Assembly (NCBI GenBank): GCA_031253495.1
Contig: JAIRWC010000037.1
Coordinates: 51,898 to 115,897, forward strand
DNA length: 64,000 nt
Reading direction: 5' to 3'
Source: Oscillospiraceae bacterium
GTDB taxonomy: Bacteria > Bacillota > Clostridia > Oscillospirales > Ruminococcaceae
Positions 21,963 to 27,178 of this stretch are shown piece by piece. A program made the position numbers and the translations under genes. The first letter of the stretch is position 1. Every line of letters starts with the position of its first letter. The notes below the pieces were generated by a model, which was not told the origin of the DNA, made no database searches, and worked only from the letters and a program-made list of their open reading frames with translations.

Positions 21963-22346
21963 ATGGTTTTTATGGCTGGGGCAAGCGAGAGACGCGCGTA
22001 TATACGCGATAATTGCGACGAAGACTCTTTTATAGGCTCTAAAATCAGCGCCGACGGGAGGAATTGGCTTGATGTTGAAGTGTTTGATTTTTCTGCCGGC
22101 GGACTGAAATTTTGCCTGGGCAAGGATTCCGAATATAAAACGGACGACGTTTTATATTTTGAGCTTGTCATTGACGAGTTTCCCACCCAAATCGAAATAA
22201 AGGCTCAGATTATAATCCGCAGGGTCGAGCATCACAGCGACGGGCAGGTCTTTTACGGGGCCGCTTTCACGAAAATAAATCCTAATTTGCGTATCTGCAT
22301 AGATGAAATTATTTTATATAAAAAAAGACAGTATAAACAAGCCTAA
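21963..22346 (+). CDS. PilZ-domain c-di-GMP-binding protein
   Basis: ERRAYIRDN...VEVFDFSAGGLKF pattern (RxxxR, D/NxSxxG). Confidence 0.8.
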   Translation: MVFMAGASERRAYIRDNCDEDSFIGSKISADGRNWLDVEVFDFSAGGLKFCLGKDSEYKTDDVLYFELVIDEFPTQIEIKAQIIIRRVEHHSDGQVFYGAAFTKINPNLRICIDEIILYKKRQYKQA

Positions 22347-22377
22347 ACAGGGGGCGGTCTTGGTCGCTCCTTACGAA

Positions 22378-22414
22378 AAAATGCCCTTTATCCCGCTTTG
22401 GTAAAGGGCATTTT
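22378..22414. terminator. Bidirectional intrinsic terminator between PilZ gene and gpsA
   Basis: 13-bp perfect arms AAAATGCCCTTTA / TAAAGGGCATTTT. Confidence 0.85.
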
Positions 22415-22450
22415 CGATTTTGCTCAATAAACCTCCCCGGAAAAGGAGGC

Positions 22451-23452
22451 CTAATCCGTCCAGAACCGTTCCCGCTCGTCCTTTTGCGGCCGTTCCATAA
22501 GCGCGCGCAAAGCGTCCTTCGGTTTCGCCCCTTCGTAGCACAGCCCGTAAAGCTGCTCAAAAATAGGGACGTCAACCCCTTTTTCCCTCGCTAACCGCAA
22601 AGCTATCCTTACGCAGTCGTATCCCTCGACCGTCCCCACGCTTTTTACCGCCTCCTCGGCGGACATCCCGCGCCCTATCAAAATCCCCGCGCGATGATTG
22701 CGCGAATGTTTTGACGTGCAGGTTACTATTAAATCGCCCACGCCCGCCAATCCGGTGAAGGTTTGCCATTTCGCGCCGAGCGCGGTTCCCAAACGCTTTA
22801 TCTCGGCTAACCCCCTTGTCATAAGCGCGGCGACGGTGTTGTCGCCCAACCCCATTCCCAAAGCTATTCCGCAGCAAAGGGCGATGGGGTTTTTTAACGC
22901 GCCGCCCAGTTCGCAGCCGATTAAGTCGTCGTTGACGTATATGCGAAAACTGTTCGTCTGTAACGTCCTTTGAATGTATTCGGCGCTTTCCCTGTTTGAA
23001 CTCGCCGAAACCACCGTCGTCGGAATCCCCCGCCCGACCTCTTCGGCGTGGCAGGGACCCGTCAGCGCCACAATGGGATTGCCGGGTATGCGCGAACCGA
23101 TTACCTCGGAGAACCGCCCCCCGCTTTCCCCGGCGAAGCCTTTCCCCGCGTTTACGATTACGGCGTTTTCGGGAATGTACGGGGCGGCTTCTTCCGCTAC
23201 TTCCCTCACAAATTTTGAAGGAATGGCGAATATTATTATCCGGGCTTTCTTTATGAGGGAAATATCGGTGGTAAATTCAATGCCTTCGGGGATTTTCACG
23301 CCGGGCAAAAGCCGTTTATGCTCCCCGTCGCGCCTGATTTCCTCTATTTCGCCGGAGAATTTGGTATAAGCGGTAATTTTATGCCCCGCCCCGTGCCATA
23401 AAACCGAAAGCGCGGTTCCGAAACCGCAGCCTAAAATCATTATATCGGCCAT
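22451..23452 (-). CDS. gpsA: NAD(P)H-dependent glycerol-3-phosphate dehydrogenase
   Basis: ILGCGFGTALSVLW, GALKNPIALCCGIALGMG, GVGDLIVTCTSKHSRN. Confidence 0.96.
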   Translation of the reverse strand: MADIMILGCGFGTALSVLWHGAGHKITAYTKFSGEIEEIRRDGEHKRLLPGVKIPEGIEFTTDISLIKKARIIIFAIPSKFVREVAEEAAPYIPENAVIVNAGKGFAGESGGRFSEVIGSRIPGNPIVALTGPCHAEEVGRGIPTTVVSASSNRESAEYIQRTLQTNSFRIYVNDDLIGCELGGALKNPIALCCGIALGMGLGDNTVAALMTRGLAEIKRLGTALGAKWQTFTGLAGVGDLIVTCTSKHSRNHRAGILIGRGMSAEEAVKSVGTVEGYDCVRIALRLAREKGVDVPIFEQLYGLCYEGAKPKDALRALMERPQKDERERFWTD

Positions 23453-25575: not shown

Positions 25576-26238
25576 TCACGGTATAAGCGCGCGTTCCCGC
25601 GGGTAAAAACGGTTTGCCCTTTTCAGATACGCCTCTATCGGAACGCGGTACTTTTCAAGGAGTTCGCGCCGCAGATACGGCGAAAGGCGGCGTTTCCCGC
25701 TTAACGCGGCGATTCTTGAACAAGCCGCTTTCATCGACACGTTGAACAGGCGGCTTATCTCAACCGCCGTAATCCCTTTATTCAACCCCGAAGCCAAAGC
25801 CGATATAACGGGTTCCGGCATGAGCAGCTCCGCCGCGAAGCCGTTCGCCTCGCGCTCTTCCGCCTCGCCGTCGCCGCGATGCCCCAAAACGATATGCCCC
25901 ACTTCATGCGCCAGCGTCCAGTTGAGCCGCTTGTTTTCGGGGTTTACGGCGTTCGTTGAACGGTGGGCGTTCGGCTTGTAGGAAGAACGCGCGTCGGTTA
26001 AAATCAAAAAAACGCCGTTATAAGCGACCGTGTAACCGTCGCGGAAACAGGGCGATGGCAACAGCGCCTTCAGCGGAACACCCGTCAGTTTCGAGTAATT
26101 TTGAAAGGTATCGAAATAGATTTTCCCGTCGAACCGCATTTCGGAAACGTCAGGCGAAAAACTCGCGGTATCTTGCGTTAAAAGCAACTCGCGCGCCGCG
26201 TCCCCGTAATTTTCGCGCCTTAAAAATCCTGTCGTCAT
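25576..26238 (-). CDS. ImmA/IrrE-family metallopeptidase
   Basis: LAHEVGHIVLGHRGDGEAEEREANGFAAELLMP. Confidence 0.92.
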   Translation of the reverse strand: MTTGFLRRENYGDAARELLLTQDTASFSPDVSEMRFDGKIYFDTFQNYSKLTGVPLKALLPSPCFRDGYTVAYNGVFLILTDARSSYKPNAHRSTNAVNPENKRLNWTLAHEVGHIVLGHRGDGEAEEREANGFAAELLMPEPVISALASGLNKGITAVEISRLFNVSMKAACSRIAALSGKRRLSPYLRRELLEKYRVPIEAYLKRANRFYPRERALIP

Positions 26239-26244
26239 TTTTAT

Positions 26245-26562
26245 CTACAATCCCTTTGCTTTTAAATAATTGTCAATGGTATCCCTGAACGTTTCCAAAA
26301 GGAAACGCCTGTCCGTTTCGGGAACGAAAGCGAGATGCCGCGCCAAAAGCACGATTTCGGGATTGTCGGTATCGTGTCCCAGCAAAAAGTCGACGGACAC
26401 CGAAAAATAATCGGCGAGCCTTTGCAGCGTTCCGGTATCGGGGGTGCGCTTGCCCGTTTCCCAATTCCCAACGGTTCCCTGCGTTACTCCCATTTCGCGC
26501 GCCAACCGGGTTTGGCTTATATTCTTCAGTTCCCTTAACTGTTTTAATCTTTGTGCGAACAT
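26245..26562 (-). CDS. XRE-family transcriptional repressor (start MFAQRLKQL)
   Basis: HTH RLAREMGVTQGTVGNWETGKRTPD; RBS aaggggag. Confidence 0.92.
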   Translation of the reverse strand: MFAQRLKQLRELKNISQTRLAREMGVTQGTVGNWETGKRTPDTGTLQRLADYFSVSVDFLLGHDTDNPEIVLLARHLAFVPETDRRFLLETFRDTIDNYLKAKGL

Positions 26563-26584
26563 AAAAATCTCCCCTTTTCCGGTG

Positions 26585-26613
26585 ATTATATCACATTTTG
26601 TGATAAATGTCAA
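26585..26613 (-). promoter_or_regulatory. Promoter of XRE gene with operator TATCACA-TTT-TGTGATA (26589..26605) between -35 and -10
   Basis: TTGACA - 17 bp - TATAAT on minus strand; spacer holds the palindrome. Confidence 0.8.
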
Positions 26614-26660
26614 CAGATTATATAAAAAAATGTGCGATATCACGAAAAGAAATAATGTTA

Positions 26661-26689
26661 TTGACTAATATGTCGATGTGTGATATAAT
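26661..26689 (+). promoter_or_regulatory. Divergent promoter with TGTGATA half-site fused to -10
   Basis: TTGACT - 17 bp - TATAAT; TGTGATATAAT shared with XRE promoter. Confidence 0.75.
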
Positions 26690-26719
26690 AATCAAAAACA
26701 CCGCGAAAAGGAGCATTTT

Positions 26720-27178
26720 ATGAGAAAAAAAACCACCCCGCCCAAAGACGTCATGCGACTGTGCGAGGAAATCGCGAAAGGGCACGAACGGCGGAAGAAG
26801 GCGTATGAAAGAAAACGCCTCGACATAATCTATTCAACGGGCGGCGGGTTCGTCGAATTAGGGAGAAATTCGGATATTTCCGACCCCGTCGCGAAAAAAA
26901 CGGAAAGGCTTGAAAACCTTGAAAAGGGGTTGGACGCCAAATTCATACGGGCGGTGGAGCAGTCGCTTTCGGCGTCGGGAACGGACGTCTCGTGGGAATC
27001 GCGGGAAAAACTGCGTAAGGCGCTGATGTTAAACTGTGAAAGCGGGCGCGATTATCCTTACGAACTGCTGGGAATAGACGAGTTTTCGCGGCGCGATTTT
27101 TACAGGAGGAAGGGGCGGTTTATCGCGGAGATAGCGTCGGCGCTCGGGCTGGCGGATTACGGCGCCGAAAGCGAATAG
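26720..27178 (+). CDS. Hypothetical protein resembling phage-type transcriptional activators
   Basis: C-terminal GIDEFSRRDFYRRKGRFIAEIASALGL, HTH-like, similar to phage ArpU/RinA-type tails from memory. Confidence 0.5.
   Translation: MRKKTTPPKDVMRLCEEIAKGHERRKKAYERKRLDIIYSTGGGFVELGRNSDISDPVAKKTERLENLEKGLDAKFIRAVEQSLSASGTDVSWESREKLRKALMLNCESGRDYPYELLGIDEFSRRDFYRRKGRFIAEIASALGLADYGAESE

Follow-up and report, generated by a model that had tools for sequence, protein, structure and literature searches.

A putative phage-derived lysogeny switch with an ArpU-like output in a housekeeping region of a Ruminococcaceae clade

Genes, promoters and a predicted operator at the locus

The window analysed in this study, a stretch of 64,000 nucleotides from an Oscillospiraceae bacterium (genome G000), contains a trio of genes in which those for an M78 peptidase and an XRE repressor, both on the minus strand, are oriented divergently to a plus-strand gene for a 152-aa protein (Table 1). 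The initial annotation had described an XRE gene and an ImmA/IrrE peptidase gene facing a 152-aa gene, and both the genes and the HEVGH motif of the peptidase were confirmed. The repressor, an HTH protein, is encoded adjacent to and co-oriented with the HExxH-bearing peptidase, an arrangement of the ImmR/ImmA type. A longer reading of the XRE gene, which starts at a GTG and comprises 132 aa, was rejected because its start codon lies upstream of the gene's own promoter. Ten flanking proteins in the window match housekeeping Pfam families, among them Der/EngA, PlsY, GpsA, a TrpR-like regulator, a GlmU-like protein, a class II tRNA synthetase (AspS by its sequence), an amidase and S-adenosylhomocysteinase. 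Pfam analysis of these ten proteins revealed no integrase, terminase, structural or transfer gene linked to the trio, in line with the earlier statement that no integrase, terminase or structural gene is visible nearby.

Table 1. Coordinates of the genes, promoters and predicted operator sites within the window.
Feature	Position	Strand	Evidence
M78 (ImmA/IrrE-type) metallopeptidase, 220 aa, predicted anti-repressor	25576..26238	-	PF06114 E 4.7e-16, HEVGH intact
XRE (HTH_3) repressor, 105 aa from ATG	26245..26562	-	HTH_3 E 1.5e-17
XRE-peptidase promoter TTGACA-17-TATAAT	26585..26613, starts 26613	-	12/12 hexamer match, 17-bp spacer
Predicted main operator TATCACATTTTGTGATA	26589..26605	.	14/14 dyad in spacer and -10 of XRE promoter
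Weak middle site, half-site TATCACG	26638..26654	.	10/14 as dyad; G020 has full dyad here
152-aa gene promoter TTGACT-17-TATAAT	26661..26689, starts 26661	+	11/12 hexamer match
Predicted partial operator TATGTCGATGTGTGATA	26669..26685	.	11/14; overlaps spacer and -10; G020 counterpart 13/14
152-aa ArpU-like regulator gene, predicted switch output	26720..27178	+	Terminase-adjacent relatives, hhalign, AF2 fold

Both divergent promoters are of the sigma-A type and have 17-bp spacers, the repressor being served by TTGACA-TTTATCACAAAATGTGA-TATAAT and the 152-aa gene by TTGACT-AATATGTCGATGTGTGA-TATAAT. The palindrome TATCACA-TTT-TGTGATA (TATCACATTTTGTGATA) previously noted in the XRE promoter is indeed exact and occurs as a single exact copy in the 1.67-Mb genome. 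It scores 14/14, and among 2000 shuffled versions of the intergenic region not one reached even 13/14. Two further sites proposed for this region held up in part. The sequence at the divergent -10 (TGTGATATAAT), thought to be the same as that in the XRE promoter, has one good half-site but scores only 11/14 as a dyad and is in part simply an extended -10 (TGaTATAAT). The third, imperfect site (TGTGCGATATCACG, 26631-26644) is present, but its arms stand in the order opposite to that of the operator, and the good half-site TATCACG at position 26638 forms a 10/14 dyad, a score that is common by chance (14% of the intergenic shuffles).

Conservation of the trio and divergence of its predicted operators

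A full-length match to the peptidase was detected in five of 71 genomes of the genus (G000, G006, G020, G064 and G066). In all five species, represented by draft assemblies, the trio lies in the same order upstream of der-plsY-gpsA and retains the two promoters with their 17-bp spacers, and inspection by eye revealed no recognisable phage or mobile genes beside it in the four relatives. In a maximum-likelihood tree of Der from 30 genomes, the five carriers form a single clade (support 100/99) that includes none of the 25 non-carriers. Where the flanks of non-carriers are readable, der has different upstream genes, often one for a PDZ-like protein (assigned by eye). Pairwise amino-acid identities among the carriers amount to 47-72% for the activator, 43-58% for the peptidase and 53-65% for the repressor, the last range also being that between the XRE protein of the window and its four relatives. 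All three reading frames are intact in the five species, with dN values of 0.2-0.6 at saturated dS, and residues H111, E112 and H115 of the peptidase are invariant. As judged from these comparisons, the trio proteins are under purifying selection, and the simplest reading is one gain followed by vertical descent under such selection. According to the initial annotation, its reading would be refuted if the trio were never conserved or lay inside a prophage. Instead, the three genes keep their order and slot in five species of one clade and, in these draft assemblies, have no linked phage genes. Shared order and slot within a single clade, together with the signature of purifying selection, thus argue that the trio is vertically inherited and is not an unnoticed prophage. 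Its conservation points to a functional set of genes, and its relatives (see below) to a phage-derived one.

Two features of the surrounding region were also recorded. The aspS gene adjoins the trio in the window and is found near an activator-like gene in two genomes of other lineages (G109 and G052); this link was set aside as a coincidence, because aspS is not located beside the trio in the other four carriers. In these four species, a spoIIR-like gene and a sigma-factor-like gene adjoin gpsA (by eye). Their place in the window is taken by a PilZ-like gene (21963-22451), which may reflect changed sporulation genes in this species.

The predicted operators vary among the carriers. G020 has 13/14 dyads inside the divergent promoter and in the middle of the intergenic region as well as an imperfect 11/14 dyad in the XRE promoter, and TATCACG-N3-TGTGATA occurs in its genome only as the two 13/14 dyads. 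At the level of sequence, this species provides better support than the window for predicted operators in both promoters. Full TATCACA-type dyads are limited to G000 and G020, and G006, G064 and G066 have TATCACA-type half-sites at most, plus a different dyad. In the intergenic regions L018-L021, dyads of the TATTCC-N5-GGAATA type lie, two in tandem, directly after the activator -10 in G006, G066 and G020, with the counterpart TATGCC-N5-GGCATA in G064. In G006, G020, G064 and G066, there is also a third copy, which is only partial (TATGTC-N5-GGAATA) and overlaps the XRE promoter at its -35. Both types of dyad share a 17-bp frame, TATnnC-N5-GnnATA, and the second type may be bound either by the same XRE protein or by the 152-aa protein. 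G000 lacks this dyad, and residue 33 of its XRE protein is N instead of K, a correlation seen in one species only.

Genome scans for a wider operator regulon, as suggested initially, yielded none. In G000, there is no other exact operator copy beyond the locus, and allowing up to two mismatches added only two other places; in G020, both exact copies are at the locus and none lies outside it. A dispersed repressor regulon was therefore rejected for exact sites, the operator being private to the locus in both genomes. Exact copies of TATTCC-N5-GGAATA occur at the locus in G006, G020 and G066, with one unrelated copy in G064 and none in G000, and the tandem form without mismatches is confined to the locus in G006 and G066. 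This dyad was likewise dismissed as the mark of a wider regulon, since its exact copies are almost confined to the locus.

Relatives of the 152-aa protein and of the XRE-ImmA pair

For the 152-aa protein, Pfam and NCBIfam gave no match and PHROGs no strong one; the protein does not pass the ArpU/RinA cut-offs (NCBIfam TIGR01637/TIGR01636), and a sequence search of solved structures likewise produced no hit. Relatives were sought in samples of the order and the family, covering some 400 genomes, with no more than nine candidates being scored in each and several gene names in other genomes assigned by eye. Most of them are phage-region proteins encoded beside terminase genes (L043-L048, L139, L140, L142 and L143). 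A relative followed by a terS-like gene is also present in the faecal phage MT836871, and searches of viral contigs with the activator returned only close copies of two known relatives. The terminase genes were called by PHROGs for L044 (terS), L047 (terL) and L032 (terS) and by eye in the remaining cases. In phage relatives such as L044, L045, L047 and L032, the gene lies just upstream of the terminase; at the window locus, no terminase is found downstream of it.

The relative L047 matches PHROG 248 (phrog_248, transcriptional activator; 8e-9) and, below cut-off, both the ArpU and the RinA model. When a 10-sequence family profile, built from an alignment that left out L047, was compared with this protein by hhalign, the two were linked with a probability of 96.9 and an E-value of 1.6e-10, a figure that is indicative only because the target is a single sequence. 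RinA of 80alpha aligned to the family over just 23 C-terminal columns. AlphaFold2 produced a confident all-helical model from ten sequences (pLDDT 84.5, pTM 0.77), which has one strong viral fold match, to a functionally uncharacterised phage protein (E 7.3e-9); among weaker viral matches (E about 0.01), some are named transcriptional regulator or activator. A first model from five sequences was poor (pLDDT 60.9), and its PDB matches were discarded. Given these profile and fold links and the lack of a curated-model match, we therefore describe the 152-aa protein as an ArpU-like regulator by descent, not as a certified ArpU/RinA member. The proposed resemblance of the output to a phage late-gene activator is thus borne out by the terminase-adjacent relatives and the hhalign link to L047. 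The profile and structure searches recommended for it succeeded in so far as they yielded that link and a fold match, but they led to no curated family.

In viral contigs, relatives of the repressor-peptidase pair are arranged with the XRE gene first and the ImmA gene second. A serine recombinase gene lies downstream in all four contigs read in detail (L113-L115 and L117), and at least L113, L115 and L117 have a gene for a Cro-like HTH protein divergent from that of the repressor (names assigned by eye). By these similarities, the pair matches temperate-phage immunity modules. In the window, the divergent slot is held by a late-type regulator instead of a Cro-like HTH protein. The trio resembles a lysogeny switch that has collapsed onto its own late activator. 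The simplest route to this state would be deletion of the whole stretch from the early promoter to that activator, along with all late genes.

Look-alike sets exist in other lineages. In G511, from another genus of the family, a gene for a 143-aa activator relative (E 1.9e-13) stands opposite an XRE gene, with an M78 peptidase gene (PF06114 8.6e-13) next in line; the set lies between rimO-like and pnp genes (L141:2560-4264, G511:C225), and no phage genes were seen around it. The activator promoter, TTGACA-17-TATAAT, has a LexA/SOS-type box (GAACAAATGTTC) just downstream. In housekeeping regions of G109 (L049:7629-9186) and G052 (L050:7649-9146), an activator-like gene is opposite in strand to a gene for an HTH-Peptidase_S24 protein, a self-cleaving kind. 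These relatives are weaker, with E-values of 1e-4 to 6e-4 per genome, and in a small search the larger profile gave 5.5e-7 and 1e-6. In both genomes, the activator-like gene seems to be immediately preceded by a short, conserved Cys-rich reading frame. In G566 (G566:C11, L138:8584-9009), a lone relative of the 152-aa gene adjoins a sugar kinase gene in a chromosomal setting, and no XRE or M78 relative was found in the 18 kb read around it.

A proposed reduced phage switch and its alternatives

The PBSX regulatory region of Bacillus subtilis comprises Xre, an ImmA-like peptidase and Xpf. These are regulators of the kinds found in the trio and likewise share a region of phage origin, which, however, belongs to a defective prophage that has intervening as well as structural genes. 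Deinococcus IrrE/DdrO also pairs an M78 peptidase with an XRE repressor in host use; DdrO, however, controls a dispersed repair regulon, whereas the exact operator of the trio is genome-unique. ICEBs1 shares with the trio an XRE repressor adjoining an M78 peptidase and a divergent output promoter, but is a mobile conjugative element, whereas the trio has no integrase or transfer gene. Its repressor ImmR, a protein of 127 aa, is cleaved at F95-M96 (PMC8960796). The best precedent is the Listeria monocin module, in which a vertically inherited cI-like repressor undergoes cleavage dependent on the peptidase MpaR, which also cleaves the repressors of other prophages (PMC6872733). In both, a DUF955/M78 peptidase gene follows that of an XRE-type repressor, the promoters are divergent (lmaD/lmaC in Listeria) and inheritance within a host clade is vertical; some Listeria strains, moreover, have similarly short versions of 3-6 genes (PMC6872733). 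Unlike the trio, which has no linked structural gene and whose divergent gene encodes a late-type regulator, the monocin normally keeps tail and lysis genes. In the XRE protein of the window, a candidate cleavage place is the LLARHL stretch (residues 72-77) behind the HTH, which corresponds by eye to the point at which Listeria MpaR cuts (A74-H75; PMC6872733). The 152-aa protein, for its part, resembles the ArpU/RinA late regulators of Bacillota phages in size, helical fold, terminase-upstream relatives (the 80alpha RinA gene lies beside terS) and its ArpU-like profile match, but has no match to a curated model and is encoded opposite an immunity repressor. RinA is reported to act on the host gene sarA (PMC9867676), so that a late regulator acting on the chromosome has a precedent.

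Taken together, the locus is probably a phage-derived lysogeny switch that was reduced to its control end, is inherited as a set of host genes and controls an ArpU-like output. The domesticated phage switch envisaged by the initial annotation is supported by the clade-wide vertical inheritance in a housekeeping slot, the phage relatives of all three proteins and the absence of linked phage genes. At rest, an XRE dimer would occupy 17-bp dyads in both divergent promoters, limiting its own synthesis and shutting off the 152-aa gene. Under stress such as DNA damage, the ImmA-type peptidase would be activated and cleave the repressor, as its homologues do, and the ArpU-like protein would then be made. 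In the ancestral phage, this protein would have turned on the terminase and later genes. The early genes between immunity region and late activator are missing, and the activator would therefore be the direct output, possibly acting in trans on chromosomal genes or resident prophages.

The search for such targets covered three phage families, terminase, portal and tape measure. Among the five carriers, portal and terminase were found in G000 and G006 only and the tape measure in G066 only, there within an ordinary prophage with a sheath, a recombinase and a ClpP-like protease. A weak tape-measure match in G000 was discarded, as the gene reads as a chemotaxis receptor (by eye). Given the patchy distribution of these three families, a linked tailocin or phage was rejected as a conserved target. 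One 12.6-kb contig of G000 (G000:C38, L062) represents a separate prophage piece with terminase, portal and serine recombinase genes, and a 72-aa reading frame before its terminase region may be its own late regulator (by eye). These findings bear on the idea of a phage-control module, in which phages that are resident or incoming would be targeted by the activator or by the peptidase, for instance through mistimed late genes or repressor cleavage. Such a role would be consistent with activator relatives that are phage late regulators by position, with the activity of MpaR on foreign prophage repressors (PMC6872733) and with the phage genes elsewhere in G000, G006 and G066, but G020 and G064 have no match to any of the families tried and the terminase contig of G000 encodes its own candidate regulator, and we consider it unlikely, if worth keeping in mind.

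The same phage ancestry could also mean that the trio consists of three leftover genes of an old, decaying prophage without present function, as might be expected from the unlinked targets of the switch and the lone activator relative in G566. This is quite improbable in view of the three frames that stay intact in five species at dN 0.2-0.6 and saturated dS, the promoters kept in all of them, the invariant catalytic residues, and the single origin and retention across a long-branched clade. Pairs of the COG2856/Xre type are reportedly predicted as toxin-antitoxin systems, and the peptidase could accordingly be a toxin, XRE its antitoxin and the 152-aa gene a regulated bystander. A Brucella pair is described in these terms (PMC10538038), and an earlier prediction of this kind is mentioned for the Listeria pair; the latter, however, proved to be a repressor-protease duo (PMC6872733). 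Since the divergent gene is, moreover, conserved with the pair in all five species, we regard a toxin-antitoxin function as very improbable indeed.

XRE-ImmA repressor-peptidase pairs are of a known kind, and the variant here is an ArpU-like late activator as their divergent, phage-free output. As a rule, domesticated phage modules retain genes for particles or for lysis, and these account for their maintenance by selection. If the locus is the reduced switch proposed here, all that selection has preserved throughout a deep clade is a decision circuit with its late-gene activator, and the circuit itself must therefore pay its way. The target of the trio is a testable question, and a self-contained switch of three genes is small enough to be transferred as a whole into a laboratory strain. 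The sets of G511 and of G052/G109 occupy separate chromosomal places and likely represent separate domestications rather than one ancient event. It is tempting to speculate, if only tentatively, that there is a recurrent class of host switches free of phage genes, having arisen at least three times in the order, in which one ArpU-like activator commands chromosomal genes or other phages in trans and is itself directly controlled by a repressor cleavable under stress (XRE plus ImmA, or the self-cleaving S24 type). Judging by the look-alikes in other lineages, viral switches of this kind may repeatedly have been put to new use by bacteria.
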